The notes beneath the pieces are model-generated. The model was not told the origin of the DNA. It ran no database searches and worked only from the letters and a program-made list of their open reading frames with translations. From IMG/VR virus record IMGVR_UViG_3300050821_024089, positions 1-39,697 of that record: a stretch of DNA of 39,697 bases, one strand, 5' to 3'. The DNA is from a virus. Shown one piece after another: positions 3,764 to 28,563 of this stretch. Numbering within the stretch: the stretch's first letter is position 1; each line of letters starts with the position of its first letter. A program made the translations under genes and the position numbers.

Positions 3764-5889
3764 CCGCCAGACCATACAAACGGGTCGCCGATGCGAACCA
3801 TAAAGCTAATGCCTCCGGCAGCCGTCCCGACAATTTGACCAACGTCGCCCGACGAGAATCCTCCCGACATGGCATTGCCCGACATATTCTGTAGTGTCCC
3901 GGATCGCCCGCACCAAACCGGTTGACCGATAGCGGTCATTGAGCCGCTACCGACAGTCACGATCCCTCGATCGTAAATTTGTGCGACCGTACCCGACACC
4001 ACGTTGTCATAGACGATCCCGATAACCGGCATTCGACCGCTTACACCCGCCATTGCGATTTGTAGGCCACCGGTCGGCGTGAACGATACAGCACGCACAC
4101 CCGAAATCAATTCGACCGTAGTTTGTGAATAGATGGGAGCGAGGAAGCCCGTATTTCCAGATTGCGGCACAAGGCCGCTTGTAATCACTTGTGGCATTCC
4201 TGATGCGAGAGCAGACATGCCGATTGAACCGGCAGCGATGCTGCCAGAAACAACAGAGTTGTTGGCGAGTTGTCCAGAGTTCACCGCACCACTCGCAAGC
4301 GCAAATTGACCAATGATCCCCGAGGCGAGATTTCCACTTGTCACAGCCACATTACCGATGTAGCCGGACGTGATGATGCCCGAAGACAGAGAAGCCCCTC
4401 CACCGCCAGACCATCCGGCAAAGCCAGAAGCCATCGAGAAGATCGAGATCGAGCCAGACGCAATCGAGCCGCTGACAACAGAAGCGTTGCCGAGATATCC
4501 CGAACCAATGATGCCCGAAGTCAAAGTGAACGTCGCCGGGATCACTCCCGAAGCCAAAGCATTGAGGCCAATTTGACCACTGGCGATCGACCCACTGACA
4601 ACAGAAGCATTGCCAAGGAAACCAGAAGTTACGGAGCCAGAACTGAGCGAACCGCCTCCTCCTGACCAACCAGCAAACCCAGAAGCCATCTGGAAGAAGC
4701 CAACAGCCCCAGAAGCAATCAAGCTCGTGACGATGGCTCCAGGGGCCATGTCGTTCGTCGAGATCGTTCCCGAAGCGATATTGAAGGCCCCGCCTCCCGC
4801 CTGCCCCATGACAGCGCCCGAAGCGACCTGACCACTATTCACCGCACCGGAAGCCAGAGGGAATCGGCCGATCGAACCCGAAGCATAAGCTCCAGAAGTC
4901 ACGGATTGATTGCCGAGTAACCCTGAGCCCACGGCCCCCGATACCAAAGGATCGAGGAGACCGGAGCAAAGATGGTTCTGGCAGATTTGACCAGAAGCAA
5001 TCGACCCGCTGACAACAGCCCCGTCGAAGATATCGAACAACTGCACACACCCCGAACTCAAATGAGCGGGGCCAATCTGTCCCGAAGCGATGCTCCCAGA
5101 CACCACAGCGCCATTGCCCAACTCGCCGGATGTGATCGTGCCGCTGTTGATGACGGGCGCACCTGATGCGAGAAAAACACCTGATGCGAAATGCATGGGG
5201 CAAATTTGACCCGAAGCAACGCTCCCGGAGATCACACAGGCATTCGACAATTGACCGCTCTGCACACAGCCCGAACTCAAATGATTCGGGCCAATCTGCC
5301 CCGAAGCGATATTGCCAGAGCCGACAGCGCCGTACTGAATCTGCCCGCTGTTAACAGCGCCGGAAGAGAGGTTGAACTGGCCAACGATTCCAGAAGCCAA
5401 CGCATTGGGTCCAATCTGGCCCGAAGCGATGCTCCCCGACACCACAGTGCCATTGCCGAGCATTCCTGATCGGACTTGCCCGGAGTTGATCGTCGGTGTC
5501 GACAGCAACCCGGAGACAAGTTGGCTCTGCGTGATCGACCCCGAAGCAATACCGAAGATTTGCCCTGACCACTGGATTTGAGAAATCCAAATCGCAGGGG
5601 CATCGAGGACAACTTCGGCTCCCGGTTGAAACACCGGATACGAGCCGCTGATCGAGGACTCCAGCAATCCGCCAGACAGAGGCGTGACGTTGCCGCTGGC
5701 GGCAGTCGCTTGGAACGTCGCCCAATTTCCAAAGTTGTCTCGGATACGGCCGAAGCACGGATATCCTGAGCCATTGGCCCCAAAGCTCTGATAACCAGAA
5801 GACACCCCGCCAGAATTGAGGCTGAAGGGTGCGCCTGAAGAATTGGTTGTCTCTCGAACCAAATCGAAGAACTGCGGAGCGAACGTCAT
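3760..5889 (-). CDS. tail fibre with pentapeptide-like SG repeats
   Basis: A 709-residue protein begun at ATG 5889, not at the longer in-frame start at 6054, because the CTAAATAC box lies 4 nt before 5889 and the longer version would overlap the divergent gene. An N-terminal globular part of about 100 residues is followed by roughly 450 residues built of five-residue units of the form [ILV]-x-S-G-x (for example VVSGS IASGQ IGPNA LASGI), as expected for a right-handed parallel beta-helix. The last about 110 residues lack the repeat (GTVAQIYDRGIVTVGSGSMT) and may be the tip. Likely role: trimeric fibre or receptor-binding protein at the tail. The repeat class is seen directly; the tail role is inferred from location beside tail-tip genes. 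Confidence 0.78.
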   Translation of the reverse strand: MTFAPQFFDLVRETTNSSGAPFSLNSGGVSSGYQSFGANGSGYPCFGRIRDNFGNWATFQATAASGNVTPLSGGLLESSISGSYPVFQPGAEVVLDAPAIWISQIQWSGQIFGIASGSITQSQLVSGLLSTPTINSGQVRSGMLGNGTVVSGSIASGQIGPNALASGIVGQFNLSSGAVNSGQIQYGAVGSGNIASGQIGPNHLSSGCVQSGQLSNACVISGSVASGQICPMHFASGVFLASGAPVINSGTITSGELGNGAVVSGSIASGQIGPAHLSSGCVQLFDIFDGAVVSGSIASGQICQNHLCSGLLDPLVSGAVGSGLLGNQSVTSGAYASGSIGRFPLASGAVNSGQVASGAVMGQAGGGAFNIASGTISTNDMAPGAIVTSLIASGAVGFFQMASGFAGWSGGGGSLSSGSVTSGFLGNASVVSGSIASGQIGLNALASGVIPATFTLTSGIIGSGYLGNASVVSGSIASGSISIFSMASGFAGWSGGGGASLSSGIITSGYIGNVAVTSGNLASGIIGQFALASGAVNSGQLANNSVVSGSIAAGSIGMSALASGMPQVITSGLVPQSGNTGFLAPIYSQTTVELISGVRAVSFTPTGGLQIAMAGVSGRMPVIGIVYDNVVSGTVAQIYDRGIVTVGSGSMTAIGQPVWCGRSGTLQNMSGNAMSGGFSSGDVGQIVGTAAGGISFMVRIGDPFVWSGG

Positions 5890-5929
5890 AACGGTATTTA
5901 GTCCTGGCTCAGCAGAACTAAATACCCTT
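5890..5929. promoter_or_regulatory. divergent promoter pair with two CTAAATAC boxes
   Basis: The 40 bases between ATG 5889 (leftward) and ATG 5930 (rightward) hold two copies of CTAAATAC in opposite orientation: at 5894-5901 on the minus strand and at 5918-5925 on the plus strand. Each ends exactly 4 nt before its start codon (CGTT and CCTT). No Shine-Dalgarno sequence fits in either gap, so both messages would be leaderless if the box is a -10 element. Confidence 0.75.
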
Positions 5930-7654
5930 ATGGCACTCGGATTTGGTCCTCTGTCGGATAAGGCGATCTCAGATACAGCTTTAGGCAGAATCTTCGTTGA
6001 ACTCGGACATGGGGGAGTAATTTGTGGCGGGCTGGCGAACGTCGATGCCTCCAATGAGCGGCAAGTCGGCGCTGCGATTGTCTTCTACCACACTGGGGCG
6101 ACCTACGAGGGACAATTCCAACTCGAACAAAGCCTGTCACTAGGGGGCCATCGCTCGGGTTCGATCAGTCCTCGTTGTGGCGTACTTGAGGCACAAGCCG
6201 TCCCTAATGTCGATATCCTCGACGCCTCGCATCAAATCGGCAGGGGAAACCTGACTGTCCTTGGGGCATCCCTCCTCTACACGGGTCCAGGAGCCACAGT
6301 TGGCGATCCTGTGCAGCCCATTCTTGGGATTCCCGTGACGGTCGAGGACTCGCTCAATCAGTGGGTCGTTGTCCAGCAAACCACGAATGCACCTCTTCAA
6401 GGTTCGGGCTCTGCCGAATTCCATGAGCAACTGAACAATGTTTGGGGCGCATCCAATGGCACCACAGCAGGAGAGACCACGTACCGGGGTGTCATCCTCC
6501 GCAACAACGCTCTCGACAATGTGACCTCGATCACGCTGAGCGTTAACACCCTGGCAAGCACCTCTTGTCTTCAGCCGATCATCGGAACCGGAGCCGGGAA
6601 ACTCTGGGGCCAAGATTTCACGAGCTTCCCGTGGCAAGGCTGGATCTCGCTGACGAGTGGCGAAGCCATGTATTACTCGTCACGGGGCGATCAGTACCTC
6701 AATGTTCCGGCCGCTGGTCGAGGAGTCCTCGGGACAAGTGCCCAAGCGGGCTCCTGGACCGACACGATTACAGCCATACCGCCGATCATGCTGGCCCTTG
6801 AAACGCCATCGAGTGGCGCAATTCAGGGGCCGCTCGCAAACGAAACCACATCGCCGAGCGGCCTTACATTTGTAAATTCGGTCACGATTTCCAGCCTGAC
6901 GCCCTGGCAAGAAATGGGCTTGTGGGTCCAGCGACAACTCCCGTCCGGGATGACAGCGGCTCCTTGGTTCGAGAATGACATCTCGCTCCAGTTCACCCTC
7001 GATGGTGTCACGTACAACGATTCGCTCGTGGGGGCCTTCCGAGTGAGTAACTCAGCCCTGGCGAGGTACGAAGTCTCGTACGCTGTTGGCCAACCGCCAG
7101 ACCTCACTCAGCCCGCCAACGAAACTTTTTCGTCGTTGCCCTACACGACAACCGGAACTTTCGCAGCGAACGAGAATGTTTACCTGAGCACCAATCTCCG
7201 CAACGTGGAGAACCTCGTCAGCGAGAACACAGATTTTTACGTCCTGTCGATCGGGAGCGGAGGTACTCAGCAGAATTTGCCTCCCTCAGCGCCGACAACG
7301 ACCCTCGATGCTGTCGGTACGGAGTTCCAAATCCAGAGCTATTACTTCGACCTCAGCGACCAAAACCCGGCCGATCAGTTCGCCATTTACATTTCGTTCA
7401 ACACCGATGATCCGCTGAGCCAAACTCCGATCATGGTCGATGTGCGTGACCTTGGGCCGTACGACTACCTGAATTACGTGACGGCAAGCCAGACGATGGG
7501 CACGACTGCGTACGTGTGCGTGAAAATGTACAGAAGCTCGGACGGCGTTTATTCGCAGAACAGCAACGTCCTCAGCGTGACGAGTCAGGTCACAGACTTT
7601 GGGCCAGCACAATTGAAGGGCTTCGCCCGCTACATATTCGAACAACGCAACTAA
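5930..7654 (+). CDS. tail-tip structural protein
   Basis: A 574-residue protein from ATG 5930 (MALGFGPLSDKAISDTALG), chosen over an earlier in-frame start at 5816 because the promoter box is adjacent. It is first in a rightward operon of five genes that ends at 12361 and is followed after 9 bases by the probable hub gene. The sequence is rich in beta-strand-like and Gly/Ser/Thr segments, with no catalytic motif I can name and no membrane segment. Its length and place in front of a hub-like gene fit a distal-tail or baseplate component. Specific function unknown. Confidence 0.72.
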   Translation: MALGFGPLSDKAISDTALGRIFVELGHGGVICGGLANVDASNERQVGAAIVFYHTGATYEGQFQLEQSLSLGGHRSGSISPRCGVLEAQAVPNVDILDASHQIGRGNLTVLGASLLYTGPGATVGDPVQPILGIPVTVEDSLNQWVVVQQTTNAPLQGSGSAEFHEQLNNVWGASNGTTAGETTYRGVILRNNALDNVTSITLSVNTLASTSCLQPIIGTGAGKLWGQDFTSFPWQGWISLTSGEAMYYSSRGDQYLNVPAAGRGVLGTSAQAGSWTDTITAIPPIMLALETPSSGAIQGPLANETTSPSGLTFVNSVTISSLTPWQEMGLWVQRQLPSGMTAAPWFENDISLQFTLDGVTYNDSLVGAFRVSNSALARYEVSYAVGQPPDLTQPANETFSSLPYTTTGTFAANENVYLSTNLRNVENLVSENTDFYVLSIGSGGTQQNLPPSAPTTTLDAVGTEFQIQSYYFDLSDQNPADQFAIYISFNTDDPLSQTPIMVDVRDLGPYDYLNYVTASQTMGTTAYVCVKMYRSSDGVYSQNSNVLSVTSQVTDFGPAQLKGFARYIFEQRN

Positions 7655-7663
7655 CGGAGGATC

Positions 7664-9871
7664 ATGCCGAGCATCTTCAACCAACCAGGATCAGCCCCAG
7701 TCGTCCAATACAACAGCAGCATCGTCGAGACTGCCGAAGAGTGGGGCGACTGGCAATTTCTGCCGTACCTCGTTTGCAATGAGGCAGAAATCGCCCTGGC
7801 TCCTGACACCGGAAGAGCGACCTTCGACTACCGTACCGGTTTCATTGCTCCCGAAGATGATCCTGGCAATCCCAGTCAGTTCGATCCAGTGGATTTGGTC
7901 GACCAGTACGTCCGAGTCTCAATTCAGCAACCGTTCTCTGATCCTGTGCCTGTGTTTTGGGGCATCTTCTCCAGCCAAACCACAGTCAGCATGTCGACCA
8001 CGAACGCAGCAGGCCCGCAGAATTTCCAAGCGCAGGGGATCGAATATCTCCTCGACCGTTGCCCGATTGCCGGGTCCAAGGCGATCAAACCGAACCCGAG
8101 CGGAGGCAGCCCCACAAATGTAACGGTCTCACTGAACACAGCGATGAGTTTCAACCGGAAACCTACGAAGGGCAAAGTCCTCGTTGGCAATCGCAGCAAG
8201 AACCTCGGACCCGATGGCGTGTACATGTTTTCCGGGTACGGAGCCAAATGGACCAACCTTCAGATTGCGAATCACCTGCTCCAATACTGGGGGCCTGACA
8301 ATGTGACGTTCCAACTCGTGGGCCAGACCGATCCCCTCGACCAGATGATTGCGTATCACGACTTCAAAGAGGGGACAACTCTTTGGAAGGCCCTCTGCCA
8401 ACTCATCGACCACCGGAAGGGTCTCATTATGATCCCCTACGTTGGCGATGACGGGACTGTGTACATCTACGTCGACACCGTTCAGGACGTGCCGATCCAA
8501 GTGGCTGGCCTGACGATCCCGCCCAACTCGAACCCTGTGCAGTTCACCCTGCCATCGAGCCCGCCCTACGACCAAATGGTCGACGATGTGCCGATCTCGA
8601 AAACAGACCAGACCAACTACGGCAACATCATCGTGCAAGGGGCGCTGGTGAAGATGATGTTCCCGGCGAGCTTCTACAACTCGCCCGCTTGGCAGCAGTT
8701 GATCTTCCCCCCGGATCAGGGGAACCTCCTGCACGCAGGAGATTACTACCAGACCCAGTACCTCACGGGCGTCCCTGGAGGCAACGGTACGCCTCAGCAG
8801 AACGATACGGAGCGTGCGAAGGACAAGTACAAGGATGTCTTCCAGCGCTTCAAGGTCGATTACAAGTGGGACGGGAAACTGATCAACTCAACACAGGCAG
8901 GAGGGAACGGCAAACCCGTCAACACCATGCCGATCCCGTACCCGGATGGGACGATCGACATCACTCCTCCTGACGGAGCCAAGCAGCAGTTGCCTACGGA
9001 TGTACCCGGAGCCCAGTTCGTCTTCTTCGATCGACTGTACTACAAGCGACTGCCGATCAGACAGGGCGTCGACTACACGCAAATCCCGCCTGTGGACAAC
9101 AACCCGGACCCGAACACGGCTGAGCATGTGCCGATGTTCGCCCTGTACTACGACAAGGACAACGGGGCGAATCACATGGCCGATACCATGTGGCACAAGA
9201 TCGAGAGGTTCAACAAGGACAACAAGGCAGTCAAGAGCCTGACTCTCCACAAAGCGGACACCGAATTAGGCGTTCACATCGAGGCGACCCCGAACCATTA
9301 CCTCGCCTTGAATCACTTTCAAAATGCGAACCCGACCAATACTCAGCCCGAACTCGACTACACGAACCTTGTCGTGGTTGGTGCGATGGACGTGCCGTGT
9401 CGCCCGACTGTGTTCTGGCAAAGTCCATTCGGGGGCAATCGTACGAAGATCGCTGTCCTTCCTTCGTGCCGGTTCATGTTCGCAACTCCCGGATGTCCGC
9501 TCGATGTGGACAACAACGGGAAGCTCGTCACGATGCCCGCCGACGATGACGGCTCGTACAACCCGATCGTCCTCGATGACGATCACACGGTTCTTCAGCA
9601 AATCGCTGTTGAGATGGCCGCTTGGTTCGGTGCTCCTCGCCAGACGATCAAGATCACCATCAAGCAGCCCGGAGTTTACGTACCGCTCGGCAGCTTCCTC
9701 GAACAAATGAATACGGCTTATTCGACGGAGCCGATCGGCACGCTGATCAACAAAATCTCGATCAACTTCGACACACAGGAGACGACGATTCAGACCGGTT
9801 TCGAGAGCCTCGATTATGTCCACCTCTTGGGTCGAGCCGAAGACCTCGACGAGGAAGAGGTGGCGCAGTGA
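7664..9871 (+). CDS. probable tail hub / baseplate protein
   Basis: A 735-residue protein with a strong ribosome site (CGGAGGATC then ATG). The first 110 residues read like a hub domain: a target-binding description 'FDYRTGFIAPED', then 'DLVDQYVRVSI' and 'PVFWGIFSSQTTV', a pattern typical of hub proteins that define a central ring. A middle region (about residues 215-265, 'TTLWKALCQLIDHRKGLIMI') resembles the second hub domain. The C-terminus is acidic (EDLDEEE). Large size and place between a tail-tip protein and a small coiled-coil protein support a tail-tip role. The stop overlaps the next gene's GTG. Family assignment is by reading only. Confidence 0.62.
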   Translation: MPSIFNQPGSAPVVQYNSSIVETAEEWGDWQFLPYLVCNEAEIALAPDTGRATFDYRTGFIAPEDDPGNPSQFDPVDLVDQYVRVSIQQPFSDPVPVFWGIFSSQTTVSMSTTNAAGPQNFQAQGIEYLLDRCPIAGSKAIKPNPSGGSPTNVTVSLNTAMSFNRKPTKGKVLVGNRSKNLGPDGVYMFSGYGAKWTNLQIANHLLQYWGPDNVTFQLVGQTDPLDQMIAYHDFKEGTTLWKALCQLIDHRKGLIMIPYVGDDGTVYIYVDTVQDVPIQVAGLTIPPNSNPVQFTLPSSPPYDQMVDDVPISKTDQTNYGNIIVQGALVKMMFPASFYNSPAWQQLIFPPDQGNLLHAGDYYQTQYLTGVPGGNGTPQQNDTERAKDKYKDVFQRFKVDYKWDGKLINSTQAGGNGKPVNTMPIPYPDGTIDITPPDGAKQQLPTDVPGAQFVFFDRLYYKRLPIRQGVDYTQIPPVDNNPDPNTAEHVPMFALYYDKDNGANHMADTMWHKIERFNKDNKAVKSLTLHKADTELGVHIEATPNHYLALNHFQNANPTNTQPELDYTNLVVVGAMDVPCRPTVFWQSPFGGNRTKIAVLPSCRFMFATPGCPLDVDNNGKLVTMPADDDGSYNPIVLDDDHTVLQQIAVEMAAWFGAPRQTIKITIKQPGVYVPLGSFLEQMNTAYSTEPIGTLINKISINFDTQETTIQTGFESLDYVHLLGRAEDLDEEEVAQ

Positions 9872-10650: not shown

Positions 10651-10658
10651 AGGAACGC

Positions 10659-13306: not shown

Positions 13307-13307
13307 G

Positions 13308-15152
13308 TCAGTTGTTCATTCCTGTTTTTGCTCGCCGATCCTTGAAGGATCTGAGTTGATCCTTGGATACGGAGAGGTGTTCCTTGGTGATTTGAAGTTG
13401 CTCCTCCTGCATCTTCAGTTGACGCTTCTCGATGTCCGTCATTTGCTGGCCCCCCGGATGAGCAGTAAGGATGTTCTCTCGGGTATTGGCGAGTTTCGCC
13501 GTCAGTTGAGTGACTTCTGCCTGAAGCCGTTTGACCTCCTGCTCTTGTGGGGTCGCTTCCCAAGCGTGCTCAATTCGCTCATGCCGCAGCGAAGGCACAG
13601 CAGGCGCAACCTCACCTCGCCAACTCACACCGGTTCGTTCTCGTGGTCGACGGGAATCGTTGTATTGCCTGATAGCTTCTTCGTACGCTGGCCCCAGCCC
13701 CGGCCCAAATCGATCCTCGGGGTGAGTGCCGTCGAAGATTTTCATCAGGTCTTGCCCACCACCGGCACGCATTCGCAGATCCCAGTTCACCAGCTTCCGA
13801 CGAATGGCCGTGTAATTTTGGGCCTTCATCGCACTGTCCATGAACTTGATCAGATGCTCGTTCTGCTCAACGAGCCCGCCCCCCTGATCGAGTGCCGCCA
13901 ACTGCTCTTCCAATTTTTCACGGGCTTCCGTCCTCGCTGATCCTCGACCAGCAATATCCTGTGCAGCCTCGATCCTCGACTTATCGCCAAGTCCTCGCAC
14001 AAAGTCTGCCGCCTCTCCTTGTCGACCCAGCAAGGCCCGCCCCACGATCCCTTGCCGTGCCGGGAAAAGTTTGCCGAGCTTTAGCTCCCGCTCCTGGGGA
14101 CTCATTTGGCCCAAGGCATCGTTCAACGTCGAGAAGGCCCCGATGACATTGCCCTGACCGAGCTTCTCGTTGAAGGCGTCAGAGACAGCCACTCCCATCG
14201 CCTCCTGTCCGGCTTCGGATTTGAGGTGGAGAAGGATTCGCTGAAGACCTTGAGCAGCCTTTTCCCTTCCACCAGCATGAGGAGCGATGGCGTAGATTTC
14301 GGCCAACATCTGGTTGGGGTCGACGCCCAATTGTTCGGCAGAAGCCCCCACCTGTTGCTGCATCGCCAGATAGTCCGAGCCTTTGTTGAGTCGCAATCGG
14401 CCAGCCACGTTCGTAGCAGGCACGGTTGCTCTGGCCATTTGGTCTCCACCGATTTGGTCGGGCGTATATCCCTTGTCCTGGAGTTGGCGCACCATCGCAA
14501 TTCCGAAGTCGGCCAGTTGCTCATCGCCCATTCCAGGGATCGCACGGCCACCCTCGATGACTTGCTTCATCACTTCGGGCATGTGCTCCTTCGTGATCCC
14601 CTGTGAGAACAAGGCTTGATAAAGCTCTGTAGGAGCCTCCAATCCGGCCATGTTGTACTGACGGGCAATCGGCGTGAGGACGTTCTGACGAACCTCCTTG
14701 AAGTCCTCGTCCTTCATCAGGGCTTGCACCTGGAGCTTACGTGCAACCTTGTCGTACTCAACCTGCGTGCGAACGATCTCCTGATTCCACTTCTCTTGGG
14801 CCTCGATGAAGCTCTCGATCATTTTCAGAATGCCGCCAACCGACAGGCTGATACCAAGAGCGCTGATAGCGGACTTGGCCGAACTCATCGCCTGAGTCCA
14901 AGCCTCGTTCTTGGTTTTCAGTTCGTCGAGTTGCTTCTTCAGGGCGTCTCGTTCGGAAATCAGCCTCTCCGTAGCGACCTTGTTCTCCATCAACTGCTCG
15001 GTGACTTGTCGAATTGCCCCAGCCGCATCCCGCATCGCTGCGACTGTCGCCCGTCCCATCCGCTCCCCGCCCTGAGTGATTTGGTCGAATGCATCGGCAG
15101 CGCCCGTCGCATCGCCGTCGAAGATCATCGTCGACTTAGATTCAATTGCCAT
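13308..15152 (-). CDS. tail tape-measure protein
   Basis: A 614-residue protein from ATG 15152 (MAIESKSTMIFDGDATGA). It is mostly helical with a long coiled coil at about residues 40-95, a Gly/Ala/Ile hydrophobic stretch (SAISALGISLSVGGILKMIE) and a charged helical C-terminus with another coiled coil (EVTQLTAKLANTREN). This is the typical build of a tape measure, which sets tail length and is ejected with the DNA. At the usual ratio of about 0.15-0.18 nm per residue it would give a tail of roughly 90-110 nm. A longer in-frame start at 15494 is rejected because of the CTATATAC box 3 nt before 15152. Confidence 0.82.
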   Translation of the reverse strand: MAIESKSTMIFDGDATGAADAFDQITQGGERMGRATVAAMRDAAGAIRQVTEQLMENKVATERLISERDALKKQLDELKTKNEAWTQAMSSAKSAISALGISLSVGGILKMIESFIEAQEKWNQEIVRTQVEYDKVARKLQVQALMKDEDFKEVRQNVLTPIARQYNMAGLEAPTELYQALFSQGITKEHMPEVMKQVIEGGRAIPGMGDEQLADFGIAMVRQLQDKGYTPDQIGGDQMARATVPATNVAGRLRLNKGSDYLAMQQQVGASAEQLGVDPNQMLAEIYAIAPHAGGREKAAQGLQRILLHLKSEAGQEAMGVAVSDAFNEKLGQGNVIGAFSTLNDALGQMSPQERELKLGKLFPARQGIVGRALLGRQGEAADFVRGLGDKSRIEAAQDIAGRGSARTEAREKLEEQLAALDQGGGLVEQNEHLIKFMDSAMKAQNYTAIRRKLVNWDLRMRAGGGQDLMKIFDGTHPEDRFGPGLGPAYEEAIRQYNDSRRPRERTGVSWRGEVAPAVPSLRHERIEHAWEATPQEQEVKRLQAEVTQLTAKLANTRENILTAHPGGQQMTDIEKRQLKMQEEQLQITKEHLSVSKDQLRSFKDRRAKTGMNN

Positions 15153-15167
15153 ACGGTATATAGGGGT
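15153..15167. promoter_or_regulatory. shared bidirectional promoter box
   Basis: Only 15 bases separate ATG 15152 (leftward) from ATG 15168 (rightward). They contain a single near-palindromic box, GTATATAG at 15156-15163, which reads CTATATAC on the other strand. It is 3 nt from the leftward ATG and 4 nt from the rightward ATG, so one box may serve both genes. Confidence 0.7.
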
Positions 15168-16717: not shown

Positions 16718-16723
16718 AGGGCC

Positions 16724-17677: not shown

Positions 17678-17713
17678 TCTGCGCCCTCACGATAAAAGTC
17701 CTACCGTATGTAG
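17678..17713 (-). promoter_or_regulatory. CTACATAC box with 28-nt leader
   Basis: On the minus strand CTACATAC spans 17713-17706. Unlike the other boxes it lies 28 nt before the start at 17677, and here the leader contains a GAGGG ribosome site. This is the one structural unit whose message would carry a normal leader. Confidence 0.6.
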
Positions 17714-17730
17714 GGGCGCTGCGCTGAGTT

Positions 17731-18273
17731 TCAGGCGAGTCCGAACGTAACTACGAAGGCTAGGGAGTAGTATTGCTCGGTTTCGTTGACCTTGTTTCGC
17801 CACGGGCGTTGAAGAGGTCGAATTCCTCGACGGAAGAGAGTGGCCGTGATGCCCTGTTGATTGAGGTCTTTGATTACGGCCCCGACATGCCCGCAGAACT
17901 GGTTGTATGCACTCGTCTCATCGGCACAACAAGGATTGACCGTATCCTGAACCCACATCACGAATGAGCCTCGGGTGAAGTTCGCCGTGTCGACTCTGGT
18001 TTCCATGCTCTCCTCAGTGGCTTGGATGACCCAGAAGGGCGTCGGGAACTCTTGATCGTCCGCTTCGGCTCCGATCACATGGACATTGGTCTGATAGGCA
18101 CTTCCAGCCCAACTTTGCCAACTCGGGCAATTGAAGATGTCCTGCTGCTGTGCGTAGGGAAAAGCCGTCAGGATGTCCATCGAGGCGTTGCATGTGAAGA
18201 CGTAGAAGGGGCACGCTGGATCTGCGGGACTCGCAAATGAACATCCTCCCGTCGCCACATATTGGAAATCCAT
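17731..18273 (-). CDS. probable tail terminator protein
   Basis: A 180-residue protein starting at ATG 18273, sharing one base with the upstream TAA (TAATG). It contains an even spread of aromatic residues, eight or so cysteines and ends with a strand-rich segment (EQYYSLAFVVTFGLA). It lies between the head-closure-like protein and the tail tube, the usual slot for a tail terminator. The assignment rests on gene order and size. Confidence 0.58.
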   Translation of the reverse strand: MDFQYVATGGCSFASPADPACPFYVFTCNASMDILTAFPYAQQQDIFNCPSWQSWAGSAYQTNVHVIGAEADDQEFPTPFWVIQATEESMETRVDTANFTRGSFVMWVQDTVNPCCADETSAYNQFCGHVGAVIKDLNQQGITATLFRRGIRPLQRPWRNKVNETEQYYSLAFVVTFGLA

Positions 18274-18644: not shown

Positions 18645-18655
18645 GTCGTATTTAG
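18645..18655 (-). promoter_or_regulatory. CTAAATAC box before neck genes
   Basis: The box reads CTAAATAC on the minus strand (18655-18648), followed by GAC and the ATG at 18644. It restarts transcription directly behind the terminator at 18666-18690. Confidence 0.75.
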
Positions 18656-18665
18656 GAGTTGTGCA

Positions 18666-18690
18666 ACGAAAAGAGCCGCTCGAAAGCGGC
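18666..18690 (-). terminator. intrinsic terminator after capsid genes
   Basis: On the minus strand GCCGCT-TTCG-AGCGGC forms a perfect 6-bp stem with a four-base loop, followed by TCTTTTCG. It lies 34 bases after the decoration-like gene and ends the capsid transcript before the next promoter box. Confidence 0.75.
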
Positions 18691-18723
18691 CCGAGTCGCT
18701 ATTACACAAGGAGGTGGAATAGA

Positions 18724-19449: not shown

Positions 19450-19511
19450 TTTGTTTTTGCTTCCTTAGAGTGCCAGTTGGCCGATTGCTCAACTGAAGTA
19501 AAAGTGATTCG

Positions 19512-21761
19512 TTATGTCCCGATGTACTTGACGTTGGACCGGTAGTCCACGAGCCCGACTGCACCAGCCTGAGCAACCTGATAAATCATGCTGCGGTTCG
19601 GCTGGAAGATGAACGAGTCAATGATGGGCGTGCTCTGCCCTTCGTGGTAGCAGTAGCCCGCACAGGCCATCATGGGCTCACTCATCATGTAGAAGGCTGT
19701 GGTGCTATTGGCATCCAATTCTGGCTCAACCAACGTGGTGAGGCTGCCCTTGAAGGTCTGAAGCCCCATGAAGACGTTGGGAATCGGGGACGATGGCGAC
19801 TGAACCGTGATATCACCCTGAGTTTCCAGCGTGGTCGGAACCACAAGGAAGGTTGGGGTCAAACGGATCAGCGATCCATCCAAGCCTCTCTGCTGACGCA
19901 TGAGGCTCCGCATTTTGCTCAAGTTCCACACGCTGGTCCCGTTCGTGCTGGCATTGCCGTTGTACGGGTCAGTCTGGTTCGAGCATGTGTTGTTGTGGCT
20001 CGCATCGAAGAGGGCCTTGGCGTCCTCTTGGACCGTCTGGTTGCCAGAGATCAAAGCCCAGAAGTTCTGGTTGAAGGTTCGCTTCGCAGCCCAAGCCAAT
20101 GAGGCGGGCACCGTCGAAATCACGTCGAGGCGATCGGCAAGCAAGAAGTTGTAATCGATGACGATGTTGTTTCCGTAGTTGACGGCCTTCCAGGTCGAAG
20201 GTGCGTCGAAGAGTTTCTTCTGCTTGGGGTCTTCACCGGCAGGCCACACGTCCAACGAGTTGACGTTGGAAATACGCTGAATGTGAACGTCGAACATCCC
20301 AATGAAGTCATCGGCCTTACGTCCAACCTTGTCGAAGGTCGTATCCGCAGCCCGGTACTGAAGTGCGAGGCTGACGTTGACGGCATCGAGCAGGATGTTC
20401 GGCAAGGAACCGGGGGTCACAGTCGGAAGACCGACGCCATCACGAGTTCCATACCAAGCACGCTCAAGGATTTCGTTACCCGAGAGGTCACGGCACGATT
20501 GGCCCTGGCTTTCGAGCAACATCCGAGCGATGTCACGATAACCCCAACGGCTGAACTTGTCGAAATCGCCCTTGGGCATTTCCTTTTCAAAGAATTCCGT
20601 CCGAGTCCTCGGATCGGCATTGTCCTTGAGCATGTTCAGCGCCCGGTGCTTCATCAAATCTTTGACGAGGCTTCGGGCTTTGACTCGCTCATCGTCGCCA
20701 ACGACCACATGCTCCGGCTTCTTCTGAGCCGTCGCCATGCGGTTGACGATCTCTTCGCAGGCACGACCGTAATCACTGTTGGCTGCTTCGCAGATTTCAT
20801 CTACGTCCAGCGCCAACCCGGCCCCCTCGATTTGCTTTCGGACTCTGGTCCGAAATGTCTGGTATTCTTTGACGGCTCGCTCAGCGATAGCCTTTTCATC
20901 AACGGCTGGTGTCTCGACTTTGGTTTCTTGCTCCATTGGTCTCCTAGAAGTTTCGGTCTTTCGCTCGGAACCGTTCCGGGCCTGTAAAGTATGTAGGAAG
21001 TCCGCTCTAATTTTTGCGTCATCGTCGGCAGGAATTGCGACAAGCGAGGCTTCTTTGAGCCTCCAGCTTGTGGTGACGACTGCTGGCCCTGAGACCACGA
21101 GCTTCCGCTTGATACGCCGTCGAGTGCCATCCTCTCCAGGAGTTGGCTTTGGTCGAGGCGATCGTTTGGACTTCTTCCGACCGTCCTTCCGCATCTCGTC
21201 ATCGTCGTCGTCTCGATCCTCTTCACAGCGATCGTCCTTATCGCAACGATCTTCATCGTCACAGCAGTCGCAGTCCTCGCCCCCTTCACAGTCACAATCG
21301 CAGTCCTCGTCGGAGCGGGCCTTGCGCAGGTTGTTTTCGTCGCCTTCTTTCTCGGGGGCGTCCTCTTCCCATGTGTACTCCCGAGTCTGGCCCTTCTCGA
21401 CCATCTCATAATCGTCGGCGTAGTAACCGGCGCTCATGCGATCGACGAAGCCTTTATCCACCTTCCGAACGGCGTCGACCTCGCCCTCATCCATCTCCAG
21501 GTCGCCAACCGTTTGACCGTTCTCGATACGGAGGTTGTGCAATCGGCCCTTGATGTTGCTGATGGACTCGTCGTTGTGAGAGTCGAGGACTTTGACGCTG
21601 CGATCCTCGTTGAGTTGAAGACCGCTCATCAGAAGGATTTCGGGGAGGAGATTGCCCCTGCCATCGGGGATCATCGGCACAGGATTTTGAGTGGCGACTA
21701 CGACTGTGCGACGGCCCTTTCCTGGCGGGACAGCGAAGGATCGAGTGAGAAATTGGCTCAT
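19512..21761 (-). CDS. prohead protease fused to major capsid protein
   Basis: A 749-residue fusion from ATG 21761. The N-terminal about 250 residues look like an HK97-type (S78) prohead protease: a His in LDSHND (His62), a Ser in DRMSAGYYADD (Ser110), and the family ending 'WRLKEASLVAIPADDDA' (233-249). Inserted before that ending is a strongly acidic, cysteine-rich stretch (about 150-190, eight cysteines) followed by a basic one (191-220). After a helical linker with a 'KETETS..' region near 266-300, the rest resembles a large capsid protein whose segments include 'DVWPAGEDPKQKKLFD' and 'SSPIPNVFMGLQTFKG'. Such fusions are known in phages; self-cleavage would release the two parts. No separate capsid gene is present. 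Confidence 0.82.
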   Translation of the reverse strand: MSQFLTRSFAVPPGKGRRTVVVATQNPVPMIPDGRGNLLPEILLMSGLQLNEDRSVKVLDSHNDESISNIKGRLHNLRIENGQTVGDLEMDEGEVDAVRKVDKGFVDRMSAGYYADDYEMVEKGQTREYTWEEDAPEKEGDENNLRKARSDEDCDCDCEGGEDCDCCDDEDRCDKDDRCEEDRDDDDDEMRKDGRKKSKRSPRPKPTPGEDGTRRRIKRKLVVSGPAVVTTSWRLKEASLVAIPADDDAKIRADFLHTLQARNGSERKTETSRRPMEQETKVETPAVDEKAIAERAVKEYQTFRTRVRKQIEGAGLALDVDEICEAANSDYGRACEEIVNRMATAQKKPEHVVVGDDERVKARSLVKDLMKHRALNMLKDNADPRTRTEFFEKEMPKGDFDKFSRWGYRDIARMLLESQGQSCRDLSGNEILERAWYGTRDGVGLPTVTPGSLPNILLDAVNVSLALQYRAADTTFDKVGRKADDFIGMFDVHIQRISNVNSLDVWPAGEDPKQKKLFDAPSTWKAVNYGNNIVIDYNFLLADRLDVISTVPASLAWAAKRTFNQNFWALISGNQTVQEDAKALFDASHNNTCSNQTDPYNGNASTNGTSVWNLSKMRSLMRQQRGLDGSLIRLTPTFLVVPTTLETQGDITVQSPSSPIPNVFMGLQTFKGSLTTLVEPELDANSTTAFYMMSEPMMACAGYCYHEGQSTPIIDSFIFQPNRSMIYQVAQAGAVGLVDYRSNVKYIGT

Positions 21762-21773
21762 GCACGTATGTAG
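21762..21773 (-). promoter_or_regulatory. CTACATAC box before capsid gene
   Basis: The minus strand reads CTACATAC (21773-21766), then GTGC, then ATG 21761. The 4-nt gap leaves no room for a ribosome site. Confidence 0.75.
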
Positions 21774-21794
21774 GGACCGTGCCGCTAATTTCTC

Positions 21795-23573
21795 TTAGGT
21801 CAGCGTGTCCAATTCCTCGTCATCGAGATCAGCCTTCTCATCAATGCGCACATTGAACGGGACGCTGAACATCTTGAGCAGAAGTTCCTCTGGATATCCG
21901 AGTTCATCCTTGGCGAAGTTGTAAAGGTCGAGGTTCTTCCGCATGTTGTCCCTCGCATTGCTTCCCCACTTGATCGCCTCGTCCGTGAAGTTCGAGAGGT
22001 TCGAGGCAGCCCGATCAATCGACGCTTTGACATCGACTCCGGGGTTGATGCTGAGGTACTGGGCTTGGGGCCAATCAGCCACAAAGAGCCGGTGCTTCCT
22101 GGCATCGCTGACCGAGTAGTCAGAGCCGAAGTATCCCTCGATGAGAGCTTGCTTGATGAGCCGCTTGTAGACTTCGGCCGCAACATGAGAAATGAAGAAG
22201 TTCTCGCTGGCCTGTCGCCTTGGGAACGTCTCGATGGCGCACGACGCCTCAGACGAATAGGTCGTACCGTTGTAGTTGCCGGTCAAAGCACTTGGCTTGA
22301 TCGGGTAACTGACAGCGATCCCACGAAGCAGGGACTCAACGAGGATGTTGGTTTGCTCTTGGTGGGCGTGCATCTCTGGCCCCTGGACCTCTTCGCCCAC
22401 TCTCAGAACTGGGGCCATTCCTGGCTTCGTGAAAAGTCTGCGGTATTGCTCGATATAGTTGCCGTTCTCGTCCTTTTCAGGAGGAGGAGCCTGGAAACTG
22501 GCATGGGGCAAGGTTTTGATGACGACGCTGAAGCAGGCTTGAATCGTCGAAGAAACGACGGCGTTGAATTGGAGGTCTCCGATTTGATTCAACATGTCGA
22601 TACAGGAGGCTAAATGTGAAATCCCCCGGTACTGTCCAGGGGCCTCATGCACATAGGCGTGCGTGAAGTCCTTGATCGGGTACGCCTCGCTACTCCAATC
22701 GCCGATCCAAAGCCAATGGAACGGATCTCCCTTGCGAAGATAGAGGTGAGTCGGTTTGCCATACTGGTCGACCTGAACGCCCTGGAAAATCCTTCCGTTG
22801 CCTTCGTTGGCGTCCGAGAATGTGTTTCGAAGGTTGTCGAGTTCCTCGCTCTTCTTGAGAACCAGTTGATATCCAACGGGAAGCTCGTACTCAGCCCGTT
22901 GGTCTGTCGTCCAAAGGTTGTGGAAGAGGATGACTTCGCCGGTCGTGAAGATTTCTCTCCCACACATTTGGAAGGCTTCGTTGATGTTGTTGCCCCCATG
23001 AATGAGGCAGCATGTGCTCCACTCCTCCCAGAGTTGTTTCGCCATCTCGTTGAACTTGGTGTCGGGCGTACCGTCATCGAGGATCGCAGTCGGGTCCGGG
23101 GCGAGGTTTGGCGGACACATGCGAGAGACAAAGAAGTCTCGGATCGCTCGTGCGTAGGAATTGTTCCGCATCAACGCCCGAGACTTGGCCCGGAGCATGA
23201 TGTTTTCGAAGTTGGGCGTGTCGGGAAACGGCCCCTCGATGAAGGACTGTTGCTCGCTGCCGGGTCGACGCTCTGCTGCTTCGTAAAGAGAACGAAGCCT
23301 ACGGTGCTCCTCTTGGGCGACCCGCATGTACCTCGCTGTCGTTTGGTTCCGCTCTTCCTGCCCAGCATGGACAGCATCGAGGGCCGACTGTACGAGGTTC
23401 GTTGTCTCGTTCTGGATTAACTCGACCGACTTCGGCGTCTTCTTAGCGACTCGCTTGGTGGGAGTCTTCTTAGGGGAGGGCTTCGCCTCCACCTTCTTGG
23501 TGTCCCGCTTCTGAAGCCAGTGATTCTTGACCTTCTGGGATGCGGGTGTCTGTTTTGCTGATTTCTTTGGCAC
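21795..23573 (-). CDS. portal protein, lambda (gpB) type
   Basis: A 592-residue protein starting at GTG 23573. A lysine-rich, low-complexity N-terminus (about 55 residues) precedes a typical portal: 'NSYARAIRDFFVSRM', 'CGREIFTTGEVILFHN', 'YLRKGDPFHWLWIGDW' and 'PGQYRGISHLASCIDMLNQI' mark the clip/stem region of lambda-type portals. It forms the ring through which DNA enters the capsid and joins the neck. It lies between a gpW-sized gene and the protease-capsid gene, the lambda order. The long basic N-terminal extension is unusual and could contact DNA. Confidence 0.88.
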   Translation of the reverse strand: MPKKSAKQTPASQKVKNHWLQKRDTKKVEAKPSPKKTPTKRVAKKTPKSVELIQNETTNLVQSALDAVHAGQEERNQTTARYMRVAQEEHRRLRSLYEAAERRPGSEQQSFIEGPFPDTPNFENIMLRAKSRALMRNNSYARAIRDFFVSRMCPPNLAPDPTAILDDGTPDTKFNEMAKQLWEEWSTCCLIHGGNNINEAFQMCGREIFTTGEVILFHNLWTTDQRAEYELPVGYQLVLKKSEELDNLRNTFSDANEGNGRIFQGVQVDQYGKPTHLYLRKGDPFHWLWIGDWSSEAYPIKDFTHAYVHEAPGQYRGISHLASCIDMLNQIGDLQFNAVVSSTIQACFSVVIKTLPHASFQAPPPEKDENGNYIEQYRRLFTKPGMAPVLRVGEEVQGPEMHAHQEQTNILVESLLRGIAVSYPIKPSALTGNYNGTTYSSEASCAIETFPRRQASENFFISHVAAEVYKRLIKQALIEGYFGSDYSVSDARKHRLFVADWPQAQYLSINPGVDVKASIDRAASNLSNFTDEAIKWGSNARDNMRKNLDLYNFAKDELGYPEELLLKMFSVPFNVRIDEKADLDDEELDTLT

Positions 23574-23585
23574 GACTTTATGTAG
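23574..23585 (-). promoter_or_regulatory. CTACATAA box before portal gene
   Basis: The minus strand reads CTACATAA (23585-23578), then AGTC, then GTG 23573: one mismatch to CTANATAC, with the same 4-nt gap. Confidence 0.65.
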
Positions 23586-23601
23586 TGCCGCCGAAACTCA
23601 T

Positions 23602-23847
23602 TTAGCGCCGCTGGAAGTCAACGATCCAGAACTGACTCGGGTTGATGGCGTAGTACGCCAATTCCGCAAAGTAGAGGTGCAACTCCTTGAGTTCGGACAG
23701 GAGCGCCCGCTTGTTGCGGTTTCCCTGAGTCTCGCTCTCCTGCGAATGCAGCACTCGATCCATTGCGTCCTCGATCATCTTCACCTTTTGGGCGTAGCTG
23801 GCGGACGAGAACTCGCACGGAAGTATCTGGTTACATTGTGGGCTCAT
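23602..23847 (-). CDS. gpW-like small head-tail protein candidate
   Basis: An 81-residue protein starting at ATG 23847 with a four-base overlap (ATGA) with the zinc-ribbon gene. It is helical: 'ASYAQKVKMIEDAMDRVLHS' then 'LLSELKELHLYFAELAYYA'. Its size and its place between terminase and portal match lambda gpW, a head-to-tail joining protein of about 68 residues. Sequence likeness to gpW is weak by eye, so the call leans on synteny. Confidence 0.6.
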   Translation of the reverse strand: MSPQCNQILPCEFSSASYAQKVKMIEDAMDRVLHSQESETQGNRNKRALLSELKELHLYFAELAYYAINPSQFWIVDFQRR

Positions 23848-24086
23848 CTTTTCCTCAACTCAGCAGCAGGTGCTTGGCCCTTGTTATCGAGCCAAGCCAA
23901 ATGGCATCGAGGGCATCCGTACTCAACCCAGAACGAACCCTCTCGAACCCTCAACACGGGCGTCTTCGGGTTGCACACGGGGCAGAGCTTCTCATTGACC
24001 GGGCCTGCCGGAGTCGGCTGCGACCGATCCAATGCTGGATCAATCTCGACAACGGCAGGTTTTGTCTCTTCGTGCTTTGATTTCAT
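23844..24086 (-). CDS. zinc-ribbon small protein
   Basis: An 80-residue protein from ATG 24086. Two cysteine pairs, CPVC (about residues 35-38) and CPRC (about 58-61), make a clear zinc-ribbon; the first 30 residues are polar and probably disordered. Its start overlaps the 3' end of the terminase gene, with the CTAGATAC box lying inside the terminase coding sequence. It may be a packaging accessory or transcription factor; the function is unknown. Confidence 0.68.
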   Translation of the reverse strand: MKSKHEETKPAVVEIDPALDRSQPTPAGPVNEKLCPVCNPKTPVLRVREGSFWVEYGCPRCHLAWLDNKGQAPAAELRKR

Positions 24087-24098
24087 GTCAGTATCTAG
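24087..24098 (-). promoter_or_regulatory. CTAGATAC box inside terminase 3' end
   Basis: On the minus strand CTAGATAC (24098-24091) is followed by TGAC and ATG 24086. The box uses the last codons of the large terminase gene and overlaps its stop codon, so box and spacing are kept within coding sequence. Confidence 0.72.
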
Positions 24099-25899
24099 TC
24101 AAGTAGCGCCCGTATTTCTCCAAACGGTCTCCTGGCGTGTACGTGGGCTTAGCATATAGCTTGGGTTTCTCTTCCTCCTTCTCCTCTTTGGGTTTGAGCG
24201 GCATCAATGCTGAGGCAAAGCGACAGCCGAACGCCTCGATCATGCCCTCGATATAGGCGGCAGCGTCCAAGTAGTGCTGCGCCCCAACCCTCTTCCACTT
24301 TCGTTTTCCGTAGCCGTAACCGTCCTCGCCGATCAGGACTCGCACCTCGCCAGCCAACTGAGCCACGAACTCGCCAAGCATTCCGTCATCGGCGAACAGA
24401 TTCCAACGACCCTTCATGTCGATCTTGTCGTTGAGGATGTCCTTGATGATGTCCGCCTGCAGCAGGATGTGCCCCGACTGTTTGTTGAACCGATACGGCC
24501 CCGGAATCTTGGTACTGCCAATGATCGGATACCACATGTTCAAGCGGCAAAACTCTTTGGTCTCTGTGCTCTCGAAACCGCAGTCCAGCCCCTTCAAGGT
24601 GACGGCGTAACCATCGAAGAGGCGCTCCCCAACTTCTTTGAGGTGTTCGAGGGTGTCGACCGTCCCGTGGTCGATGATGAAGGTTGCTCCTCCGTTGTGG
24701 CCCTTCTTGTTTGCCGCCTCGACGGCTGCCACAACCCAATGGATTTGTTTCTTGCCGTAGTCGGCCGCAACGATGATGTGGCCCGGACGGCAGGGCACAA
24801 CTCCTCGCTCATATTTGCGGCAGCAGGCGACGATGCGATTCGAGACGGCTTGGCCAACTGAAAGCGTCCAGGGCGTTGCCATCGATCCCGTACGCCACTC
24901 CCTTTTTGCGAGGGGATGGCCCTCAGCCTCTAGGAACTCACGGGCGACGGCGTGCCACTCCTGGAGAGGGCTGTACAAGGCGTTCAACGTGAAGGAACGA
25001 TGTCGCTTTCGCTCAGGATACTCAGCGATCCAGCGCCCACTCTCCAGCATTTTCGGCTTGTGATGTTCGTCGATCCGCTCTGAGCAGTACGGGCATTTGT
25101 AGTACGTGACCTCGGGCAGCCTGTCTAAATCCCAGTCATCGTCCTGCTTCGCATCGCCAAACTTGAGGTGCTCCCATTCGAGGGACTGCTCCTCGTCACA
25201 GAAGGGGCAGCGCACATGAAACTTCTCGCACGATCCGCTCAGATACGCCTTCCATGTTCGGCCTTCTTCCATGTCCGGTGTCGAGGCTTCGTAAATCTTT
25301 GCACCGGGGAAGCCTTTGATTCGTTGGCCGAACGAGGCGTAGACCGGAGTCGGCATGTCCTCGATCTCATCGAGCATCAGGAGCCCGACGCTGCGATGCT
25401 TGGCTCCTCGCTTAGATTGGCCCCCCTGAAGAATCCAGGTGCATGTTTTGAATCGCTTCTTGAGTGTGGTGTCATCCTCCCGGCCCCGGAGGAGGAGGCT
25501 CTGGAGGGGTTTACAATTGTTAAGTACCGGGTCGAGTTTCTCCTGGCTGAACTCTTCAGCGAGTTCCTTTGTGCTGATGGCGAAGAGGATCGGCGTAGGC
25601 CGATTCTTGACGCTGTAGGCCCCGATACACGTCAGGGCGAGGGACTTGCCGACTTGGCTGGAGAAGCAGAGGGTGACTCGATCGACGGGCTGTACGATCG
25701 TCCTGACGATTTCACGCAAATAGGGCGTGAACGAGAACTGGATTAGTCCCTGCTTGGCGCTGGACCTCGACAGGTCGATATGGCGCTCGCACCATTCAAC
25801 AGGGTCGATATGGTCAGGAGGACGGAGAACGTCTCTCCAGGATCGTTCTAGGGCTTCGAGGGAGGCGTTACGCTGGTCGGGGGAGAGGATGTCATTCAA
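24088..25899 (-). CDS. terL: terminase large subunit, GpA-like
   Basis: A 603-residue packaging ATPase-nuclease. The Walker A variant SSQVGKS is at residues 80-86 and the Walker B GLLMLDEIED at 172-181. A four-cysteine zinc element (CPFC ... CPYC, about 230-275) is typical of lambda GpA-type terminases. The C-terminal nuclease begins near residue 370 with 'HIIVAADYGKKQIHWVV', where the Asp is a metal ligand candidate, and a second acidic site is in 'LKGLDCGFES'. It starts at TTG 25899, overlapping the TerS stop (TTGA) behind GGAGGGG; an ATG four bases on is out of frame. It cuts and packages DNA with the small subunit. Confidence 0.93.
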   Translation of the reverse strand: MNDILSPDQRNASLEALERSWRDVLRPPDHIDPVEWCERHIDLSRSSAKQGLIQFSFTPYLREIVRTIVQPVDRVTLCFSSQVGKSLALTCIGAYSVKNRPTPILFAISTKELAEEFSQEKLDPVLNNCKPLQSLLLRGREDDTTLKKRFKTCTWILQGGQSKRGAKHRSVGLLMLDEIEDMPTPVYASFGQRIKGFPGAKIYEASTPDMEEGRTWKAYLSGSCEKFHVRCPFCDEEQSLEWEHLKFGDAKQDDDWDLDRLPEVTYYKCPYCSERIDEHHKPKMLESGRWIAEYPERKRHRSFTLNALYSPLQEWHAVAREFLEAEGHPLAKREWRTGSMATPWTLSVGQAVSNRIVACCRKYERGVVPCRPGHIIVAADYGKKQIHWVVAAVEAANKKGHNGGATFIIDHGTVDTLEHLKEVGERLFDGYAVTLKGLDCGFESTETKEFCRLNMWYPIIGSTKIPGPYRFNKQSGHILLQADIIKDILNDKIDMKGRWNLFADDGMLGEFVAQLAGEVRVLIGEDGYGYGKRKWKRVGAQHYLDAAAYIEGMIEAFGCRFASALMPLKPKEEKEEEKPKLYAKPTYTPGDRLEKYGRYLTRY

Positions 25900-26369
25900 T
25901 TCCCCTCCTCGTGGAGGACTCTCAGCACATCCTCAGCGATCTCATCGAGCATCGCTTCGGCCTGCCCTCGATCGAGCCCCACGAACTTGGCAGCCCAGCG
26001 ATACTTCACGCTGAGGAGGGCCTTACGAAAGCTGTCTGCTTGTGTGTTGAGCGCCCGCTCCCAATCTTCGGCCCAAACGAGCTTCTTTTCTCGAACGGCC
26101 TCCTCCCATTCCATCGCACGGGCCGTGAGTTCTTTGATCTTGGTTTCCGCATCCTTCTTACGATCGAGGAGTTCGACCCGCTCTTTGACCTTCTTGCGAC
26201 TGGCCTTGCTCGGGTCGATGTTCTTGTCCGCCCATTGTCTGATTTTGTCGAGGTCGTAGGGGGCCTTGTAGAGGTGCGGGCAGCCCTTTTGCTTCCATTG
26301 TGAGACGTTCTGTTGAGTGGTCCCAAGAGCGAAAGCGACCTCGGACAGGGTGTCGAGGAGCTTAGGCAT
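25896..26369 (-). CDS. terminase small subunit
   Basis: A 157-residue DNA-binding packaging subunit. I start it at ATG 26369 (MPKLLDTLSEVAFALG), behind GAGGCGG and overlapping the previous stop by 8 bases; longer in-frame starts reach 26570 but lie within the upstream gene. Residues about 5-40 form a helix-turn-helix ('VAFALGTTQQNVSQWKQKG'), then a long coiled coil (about 55-115, lysine/glutamate rich), the usual TerS build of DNA-binding head and oligomerising helix. Directly followed by the large subunit. It would recognise the packaging site on the genome. Confidence 0.82.
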   Translation of the reverse strand: MPKLLDTLSEVAFALGTTQQNVSQWKQKGCPHLYKAPYDLDKIRQWADKNIDPSKASRKKVKERVELLDRKKDAETKIKELTARAMEWEEAVREKKLVWAEDWERALNTQADSFRKALLSVKYRWAAKFVGLDRGQAEAMLDEIAEDVLRVLHEEGN

Positions 26370-26808
26370 TCCGCCTCGGAAACTGGGTTCCCTTTGACTG
26401 GCAAACGAGGGGCATTCCTCGATCATCACGAGCTTGAGCAGCGTCGGCTTGGGCTCTGGCATCGGCCTTCGCCTCTTCGACTGTTGCGCCATGACCGACG
26501 AACTCCACGTGGCAGGGCAACGCTCTTTCGTGAGCAATGACATTACAGGTGTCGACGAGCAGGCGGGCATCGGGATACCCTTCCTCGATGGTCATTCGCT
26601 CACAGTGACCACCAATCCACACAGCATCGCCTATCCTGATGTCACATGGCCTCGCAGTCTCCCGGTCTTCTTCCTTTCTCCCGACATTTGTTACGACGAA
26701 GGCGTTCGAGCCATAGTCCAAATGGCGCACGACTAGCAGACGAGATCGAAGAGGTAAGCTATCCGCCTCTTCTGGACTATAAGTCAGTTCAATAGGTGTG
26801 TACTTCAT
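26362..26808 (-). CDS. unknown first gene of the packaging operon
   Basis: A 148-residue protein begun at ATG 26808 (MKYTPIELTYSPEEADSLPL), not at the upstream ATG 26829, because the TTATATAC box lies 4 nt before 26808. Middle segments (VVRHLDYGSNAFVVTNVG, ARPCDIRIGDAVWIGG) suggest a compact alpha/beta fold; the tail is Ala/Asp/Arg-rich. It overlaps TerS by 8 bases and heads the whole leftward packaging and head transcript. I recognise no family; it could help packaging or be an early regulator. Confidence 0.65.
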   Translation of the reverse strand: MKYTPIELTYSPEEADSLPLRSRLLVVRHLDYGSNAFVVTNVGRKEEDRETARPCDIRIGDAVWIGGHCERMTIEEGYPDARLLVDTCNVIAHERALPCHVEFVGHGATVEEAKADARAQADAAQARDDRGMPLVCQSKGTQFPRRNA

Positions 26809-26820
26809 GCAGGTATATAA
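26809..26820 (-). promoter_or_regulatory. TTATATAC box before packaging operon
   Basis: The minus strand reads TTATATAC (26820-26813), then CTGC, then ATG 26808: one mismatch to CTANATAC with the standard 4-nt gap. A 12-bp perfect palindrome CCACAATTGTGG (26824-26835) lies just upstream and could be an operator. Confidence 0.65.
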
Positions 26821-27833: not shown

Positions 27834-27835
27834 CC

Positions 27836-28339: not shown

Positions 28340-28347
28340 GGAGCCCC

Positions 28348-28455: not shown

Positions 28456-28481
28456 ATCGATCGCAGCCGTTTGAGGTTTTC

Positions 28482-28510: not shown

Positions 28511-28563
28511 GCCAACGATCGTCATTTGTGAGACGATCCGTTGACACCGGAGGTCTATCGACA

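Follow-up and report, generated by a model that had tools for sequence, protein, structure and literature searches.

A conserved box directly ahead of virion-gene start codons in a lambda-type phage and its relative: very probably a promoter, probably giving leaderless messages

Introduction

What is the role of a short box that stands three or four nucleotides before the start codons of phage genes? The question is raised by the viral DNA of IMG/VR record IMGVR_UViG_3300050821_024089, analysed here over its whole length of 39,697 bases (55% G+C) and called the window below. Its products include a terminase of the lambda type, in which GpA ATPase and nuclease domains are recognised, and a portal of the lambda family; protease and capsid are fused in one protein, and another protein is tape-measure-like. 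In a sequence-only reading of this DNA, the box CTANATAC had been proposed as a possible -10-like element whose transcripts begin at, or close to, the start codon.

The window was compared with IMGVR_UViG_3300037852_000518 (43,484 bases; 70-77% identical, with 66-83% nucleotide identity in the longer aligned stretches), the only close relative that protein scans of IMG/VR brought up. TerL, capsid, portal, the product of a 241-aa gene, a 105-aa conserved protein and the product of a 735-aa gene served as queries in the IMG/VR protein scan; scans of GTDB genomes gave no close relative. The relative's record has a tyrosine integrase gene at its end (L016:3901-5484, minus strand), so the phage group is probably temperate. 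The relative also encodes a PIN-like domain protein (L014:6002-7624, minus strand; PF18476, E 6e-50). No protein similar to it was found in the window, where the same general region encodes a 572-aa protein without a family match. Host assignment from gene sharing was tried and rejected: plasmids gave no match, and the matches of the phage GroES and glycosyltransferase were too distant. The protein of 36969-37286 may resemble small planctomycete proteins.

Results

The box is enriched and stands in register with start codons

Exact copies of CTANATAC number nine in the window, versus a mean of 0.64 expected (maximum 4 in 100 shuffles). One-mismatch copies show no overall enrichment across the window (29 versus 27.7), which indicates that position is part of the signal and that trust should be limited to copies standing 3-4 nt from a start. 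A TANATA core with its last A 4-5 nt ahead of the start codon was found at 9 of the 37 starts called in the window, some of them assigned by hand (binomial P ~1e-22). When words of 6-8 letters, one of them a wildcard, were compared without bias over the 30 nt preceding starts in both phages, the core of the box was the top word in each. TA.ATA precedes 9 window starts versus 0.21 expected (P 1.7e-12), and independently ranks first in the relative with 11 starts versus 0.18 expected (P 1.3e-16).

Among aligned sites the TANATA core is present in 23/23 and C at position 1 in 20/23, while position 4 is free (A, C, G or T). A PWM that included the weak upstream element described below was unspecific at low scores: at the threshold applied, about 20 sites would be expected to be false. 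Sites scoring below about 13 were discarded, except for the relative's 26208 site (score 10.7), which was retained because it is located before an orthologous start.

Sites beside start codons

When the window sequence was checked, all the exact boxes reported earlier beside start codons were at their places, 3 or 4 nt from ATG. The tail fibre gene 3760-5889 begins at ATG 5889 on the minus strand, four nucleotides (cgtt) after CTAAATAC at 5894-5901. Divergently from it, gene 5930-7654 begins at ATG 5930, four nucleotides (cctt) after a plus-strand CTAAATAC at 5918-5925. The two back-to-back boxes are separated by 16 nt and read ATAGATACagcATG and CTACATACcttcATG, respectively, in the relative. 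This divergent pair was also used as a DNA pattern against IMG/VR and abandoned: it occurred in 39 contigs, and the counts and the seven contigs inspected resemble chance or tandem repeats, not a regulon.

The tape-measure-like gene (13308-15152, minus strand; PhageMin_Tail) has CTATATAC at 15156-15163, 3 nt before ATG 15152, and its counterpart in the relative has ATAAATATcctcATG; the near-variant before this gene, ATAAATAT, retains the core. As had been noticed before, the opposite strand of this same box serves the plus-strand ATG 15168: the TATATA core is palindromic and reads GTATATAG at 15156-15163, with a gap of 4 (gggt). At the orthologue of this start, the relative has CTAACTACaggcATG (CTAACTAC), with one core mismatch. 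The remaining sites are all on the minus strand. ATG 18644 follows CTAAATAC at 18648-18655 by 3 nt (gac; relative CTAAATAAgacATG), and ATG 21761 of the protease/capsid gene follows CTACATAC at 21766-21773 by 4 nt (gtgc; relative CTAGATACcgtATG, gap 3). The box CTAGATAC at 24091-24098, which overlaps the final TerL codons, stands 4 nt (tgac) before ATG 24086 (relative CTAAATACgtgcATG). The boxes of the portal and of the packaging operon have, as described, one mismatch each and a gap of 4. The former is CTACATAA at 23578-23585, before GTG 23573, and the relative has the same box and the same GTG; the latter is TTATATAC at 26813-26820, before ATG 26808 of the first packaging-operon gene (gap ctgc). 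In the relative, the terminase small subunit gene has GTAAATATacgcATG; the near-variant there, GTAAATAT, again retains the core. Two genes of the relative's own, at 40010 and 39655, are preceded by additional boxes.

Copies away from start codons

It had been stated that one further exact copy exists, at 17713, but there are three, those at 20996-20989 and 29172-29165 (both minus strand) having been overlooked. The first, CTACATAC at 17706-17713 on the minus strand, indeed lies 28 nt before ATG 17677 of a leadered gene with a normal ribosome site, here an SD reading gtgaggg; the relative keeps this box, 29 nt from the start. The second, CTACATAC at 20989-20996 on the minus strand, falls within the protease/capsid ORF, and an in-frame ATG at 20936 follows it after 52 nt. 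There, an SD (AGGAGA, 20945-20940) and the ATG (20936-20934; together 20934-20945) open an internal capsid ORF that ends at 19512. The box, the 52-nt distance, AGGAGA and the ATG are all preserved in the relative, and within the coding sequence the box imposes CTA, which makes up 3-4% of Leu codons and is retained in both phages. This box probably gives the major capsid protein alone a promoter of its own. Protease and major capsid protein share one reading frame (19512-21761, minus strand), with the capsid domain at residues 450-743.

The third copy, CTAAATAC at 29165-29172 (minus strand), falls at the groES stop codon and is uncertain: no leaderless ORF follows it, and no box is listed at the orthologous place in the relative. 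The phage GroES gene itself (29169-29453, minus strand; Cpn10, Pfam E 2e-29) has a start preceded by neither SD nor box, and its product is among the proteins best conserved between the two phages.

A second, A/T-rich element upstream

An A/T-rich block lies 15-19 nt upstream of the box, with A or T at position -16 in 23/24 aligned boxes. With each orthologous site counted once, none of 5000 random sets was as A/T-rich in any five columns as the aligned sites at -19 to -15. The result was the same when the test was repeated minus the 29172 copy and the divergent pair, the latter dropped because its mirror box occupies that region. The strongest forms, GAAAT and TAAAT, are found upstream of the 21773 box (21788-21792) and of the portal box (23600-23604), and the portal element is kept in the relative though the spacer differs. 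On the same minus strand, the element is GAAAC at 17728-17732 (17713 box), TCTTT at 18670-18674 (18655 box), AAAAA at 21011-21015 (20996 box) and AAATA at 24113-24117 (24098 box). That of the 5901 box, at 5916-5920 (minus strand; -19 to -15 from the box), is likewise A/T-rich. With +1 on the start codon and a gap of 4, the block would span -31 to -27, about the place where a second domain of an initiation factor would make contact.

Nine boxes could be paired between the phages: those of the divergent fibre pair, tape measure, 18644, protease/capsid, portal and 24086 starts, and the leadered 20996 and 17713 boxes. The five fixed TANATA bases are identical in 45/45 comparisons, the N position in 4/9, and the first and the last C in 7/9 each. 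Identity is 52% in the upstream spacer, 76% in the -20 to -15 region and 47% in the 4 nt after the box, figures that come from two genomes and reflect partly common ancestry, several upstream stretches being gene ends under coding constraint. The box is real and conserved between two phages.

Boxes head virion gene groups, and most box starts lack SD sites

Starts with a box are restricted to the virion block. With "late" assigned from gene function only, they make up 9/21 late versus 0/16 other starts in the window (P 0.002) and 11/21 versus 0/12 in the relative (P 0.002). The boxes head gene groups, namely the fibre pair, the tape measure with the divergent 15168 gene, the 18644 gene, protease/capsid, portal, the 24086 gene and the packaging operon. 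Strong SD words (AGGA, GGAG or GAGG in range) precede 2/20 box starts versus 30/50 other starts (P 1.4e-4). Genes inside the box-headed groups do use ordinary SD sites, as had been said of them. At 7664-9871 (plus strand) the window gene has an SD (GGAGG), and its orthologue in the relative has the box CTAAATAGgtacATG instead.

Three further loci were seen outside these groups. A single protein (768-2582, minus strand) fuses an N6/N4 DNA methyltransferase with an Mrr-like, NACHT-associated restriction-endonuclease-like domain. The non-coding stretches 26950-27080 and 28930-29045 are similar, with a common TGTGCTATG...TACTTTGGGTTT pattern and no Rfam match. A tiny acidic protein (36017-36163, plus strand) has a near-invariant IIDDDEE.EDDDSPMSGREVRSS tail in both phages.

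Candidate reading factors

The earlier remark that no sigma factor is seen in the window was borne out at the HMM level by six-frame searches with Pfam Sigma70 profiles. In both records, which may be incomplete, region 2 (PF04542) had no match in six frames, and region 4 (PF08281) gave only a 12-bit, sub-threshold stretch at window positions 39053-39136. T4 gp55 (best E 0.58) and gp47 of phage 7-11 had no match in six frames of either of these possibly incomplete records. PHROG gave no gp55 hit, no RNA polymerase family matched above noise among the scanned proteins of both records, and Rfam gave no match. The small HTH protein of 35254-35481 (minus strand) was considered as a sigma factor and rejected; its predicted fold, which has weak support (pLDDT 76, best PDB E 0.2), is a winged helix of the MerR/Xis-like type. 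This MerR/excisionase-like protein is 75% identical in the relative, and TATATTgct stands directly before its GTG in both phages, perhaps as an ordinary -10 beside the start. The box may be read by a phage factor that escaped recognition or by a host sigma, alone or together with a phage activator.

Discussion

Known systems

A resemblance of the box to T4 late promoters had been noted, and it holds: it is a TATAAATA-type box that runs from about -13/-12 to -6 in the assumed register, with position 4 not only A. The accompanying statement that this exact form had no known description must be given up, as the late promoter of Aeh1, a T4-like phage, is CTAAATA from -12 (PMC1524935). Like that promoter, which belongs to the gp55-gp33-gp45 system, the present box is one short element with a TAAATA core and C at -12, is confined to late virion genes and leaves about 5 nt between core and +1. 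What differs is its position: in a 50-kb Aeh1 control, the seven boxes that had an annotated start no more than 80 nt away lay 18, 20, 23, 26, 32, 39 and 57 nt from it, mostly with an SD between box and start, whereas the gap is 3-4 nt here. The box kind was therefore already described, and its position is what sets it apart. Further differences from T4-type late promoters, which have no -35 element, are the A/T-rich upstream element, the free position 4, and the setting, a lambda-type phage of about 40 kb without a recognisable gp55 or a T4-like genome.

The late promoters of phage 7-11, GTAAtg-(16)-aCTA, are read by the ECF-like sigma gp47 (PMC8948821). They share with ours the bipartite form, the late genes and CTA in the downstream element, and their transcripts start 6-9 nt downstream; in our phages the downstream element is extended to CTANATAC, the spacing is shorter (14-15 nt), the geometry is leaderless and no sigma was found. 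In the Thermus phage phiYS40, middle and late mRNAs are leaderless (PMC3594737), so that non-early phage genes are systematically leaderless there, as is predicted here, although in a Thermus host. Deinococcus-Thermus genes with a "-10 region adjacent to ORF" have a TANNNT element, no SD and leaderless mRNA (PMC12340547). A promoter element a few nucleotides before the start codon and the missing SD are common to both cases; the sixth base, however, is A (TANATA) in all aligned sites here, and the flanking C's are conserved. Each element thus has a separate published precedent (Aeh1/T4, 7-11, phiYS40, Deinococcus-Thermus), and no description of the combination of late box, upstream element and leaderless geometry was found in the open-access literature.

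A proposed two-part late promoter and its alternatives

The box is very probably a promoter, and the first-cistron messages of the late operons are probably leaderless. Taken together, we consider it likely that late genes of the two phages have a two-part promoter that sets the transcription start at the initiation codon and yields leaderless mRNAs. The box would be the downstream, -10-like element, used about a dozen times in the window phage and in its relative, in the layout A/T-rich element (often GAAAT or TAAAT), 14-15 nt, CTANATAC, 3-4 nt, start codon. Carrying a specificity factor, RNA polymerase would melt the TANATA core, and the transcript would begin with the start codon's first base or no more than one base away from it. 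In most late operons the first cistron would be translated from leaderless mRNA and the downstream cistrons through ordinary SD sites; at 20996 and 17713, the same promoter, sitting further upstream, would give a leadered, SD-bearing mRNA. A bolder version, in which this late regulon is read by a factor of an unrecognised kind, unlike the sigma70 family, gp55 and phage RNA polymerases, on a new bipartite promoter where initiation coincides with the start codon and the messages are mostly leaderless, is tentative, and we think it rather unlikely.

Transcriptional role, exact start point, leaderless translation and late timing are what we infer. The promoter reading draws on the conservation of the core, the second element at a fixed distance, the restriction to late genes and the two conserved boxes before SD-bearing genes. 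The proposal that transcripts start at or near the start codon finds support in the missing SD and in the geometry of the Aeh1 register, in which +1 would coincide with the A of ATG where the gap is 4 nt and fall one base inside where it is 3 nt. The distance from box to +1 is assumed from T4/Aeh1, and a rigid register cannot place +1 at A for both gaps. A pyrimidine at the predicted -1 and a purine at +1 occur in 21/23 aligned boxes, among them the two leadered sites in all four of their copies, a weak test where, as in most boxes, +1 is the start codon itself. The start codon of the portal is GTG, which leaderless translation in E. coli favours less, and this counts against the leaderless reading.

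The borrowed register is also the opening for the main rival, that the box is a promoter whose mRNAs carry a leader of several nucleotides, or start inside the gene and use a later initiation codon. Promoters of the phiEco32/7-11 sigma type start 6-9 nt from the element, and +1 one base inside the codon at 3-nt gaps would fit as well. Nevertheless, a 3-4 nt distance between box and codon permits any -10-like element a leader of only 0-4 nt, unless the box is itself transcribed; SD sites are absent, and no consistently placed alternative start codon lies downstream. We judge this rival improbable. That the sites are mere chance or compositional artefacts could be argued from the unenriched one-mismatch copies, and is practically negligible: it is refuted because the relative repeats the pattern, with the same motif ranking first independently and the core conserved, beside the excess of exact copies (9 versus 0.64).

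Two other explanations do without a phage promoter in the box. It might be a translation-initiation signal that replaces the SD, an mRNA element read by ribosome or rRNA; the fixed distance to start codons, the mutual exclusion of box and SD, and the swap of the two at 7664 all suit this idea. Against it stand the two boxes that both phages keep 28-29 and 52 nt before starts with their own SD, and the genes outside the virion block, which do not use the box; nor would a translation signal be expected to have a second element 15-19 nt further upstream at a fixed distance. We give it very little credence, marginally less than the idea that the box is an operator, bound by a phage repressor or activator and overlapping ordinary promoters, which is itself highly improbable. 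An operator would agree with a nearly invariant sequence and with the small DNA-binding proteins encoded, one ribbon-helix-helix-like by eye (28564-28770) and the MerR/Xis-like one of 35254-35481. The element is, however, asymmetric and has one orientation relative to each gene, an operator needs no fixed register to start codons, and no sigma70-like hexamer pair overlapping the boxes was noted within 20001-39697.

If the two-part promoter with its start point on the initiation codon is true, transcription start and translation start would be fused in one element, and a phage could shift its virion genes as a class to leaderless mRNAs. SD-less translation of many highly expressed structural proteins would then become testable, and the missing reading factor would be a defined target. 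The box would also serve as a signal by which to call starts correctly in such phages and to recognise both their relatives and their host.
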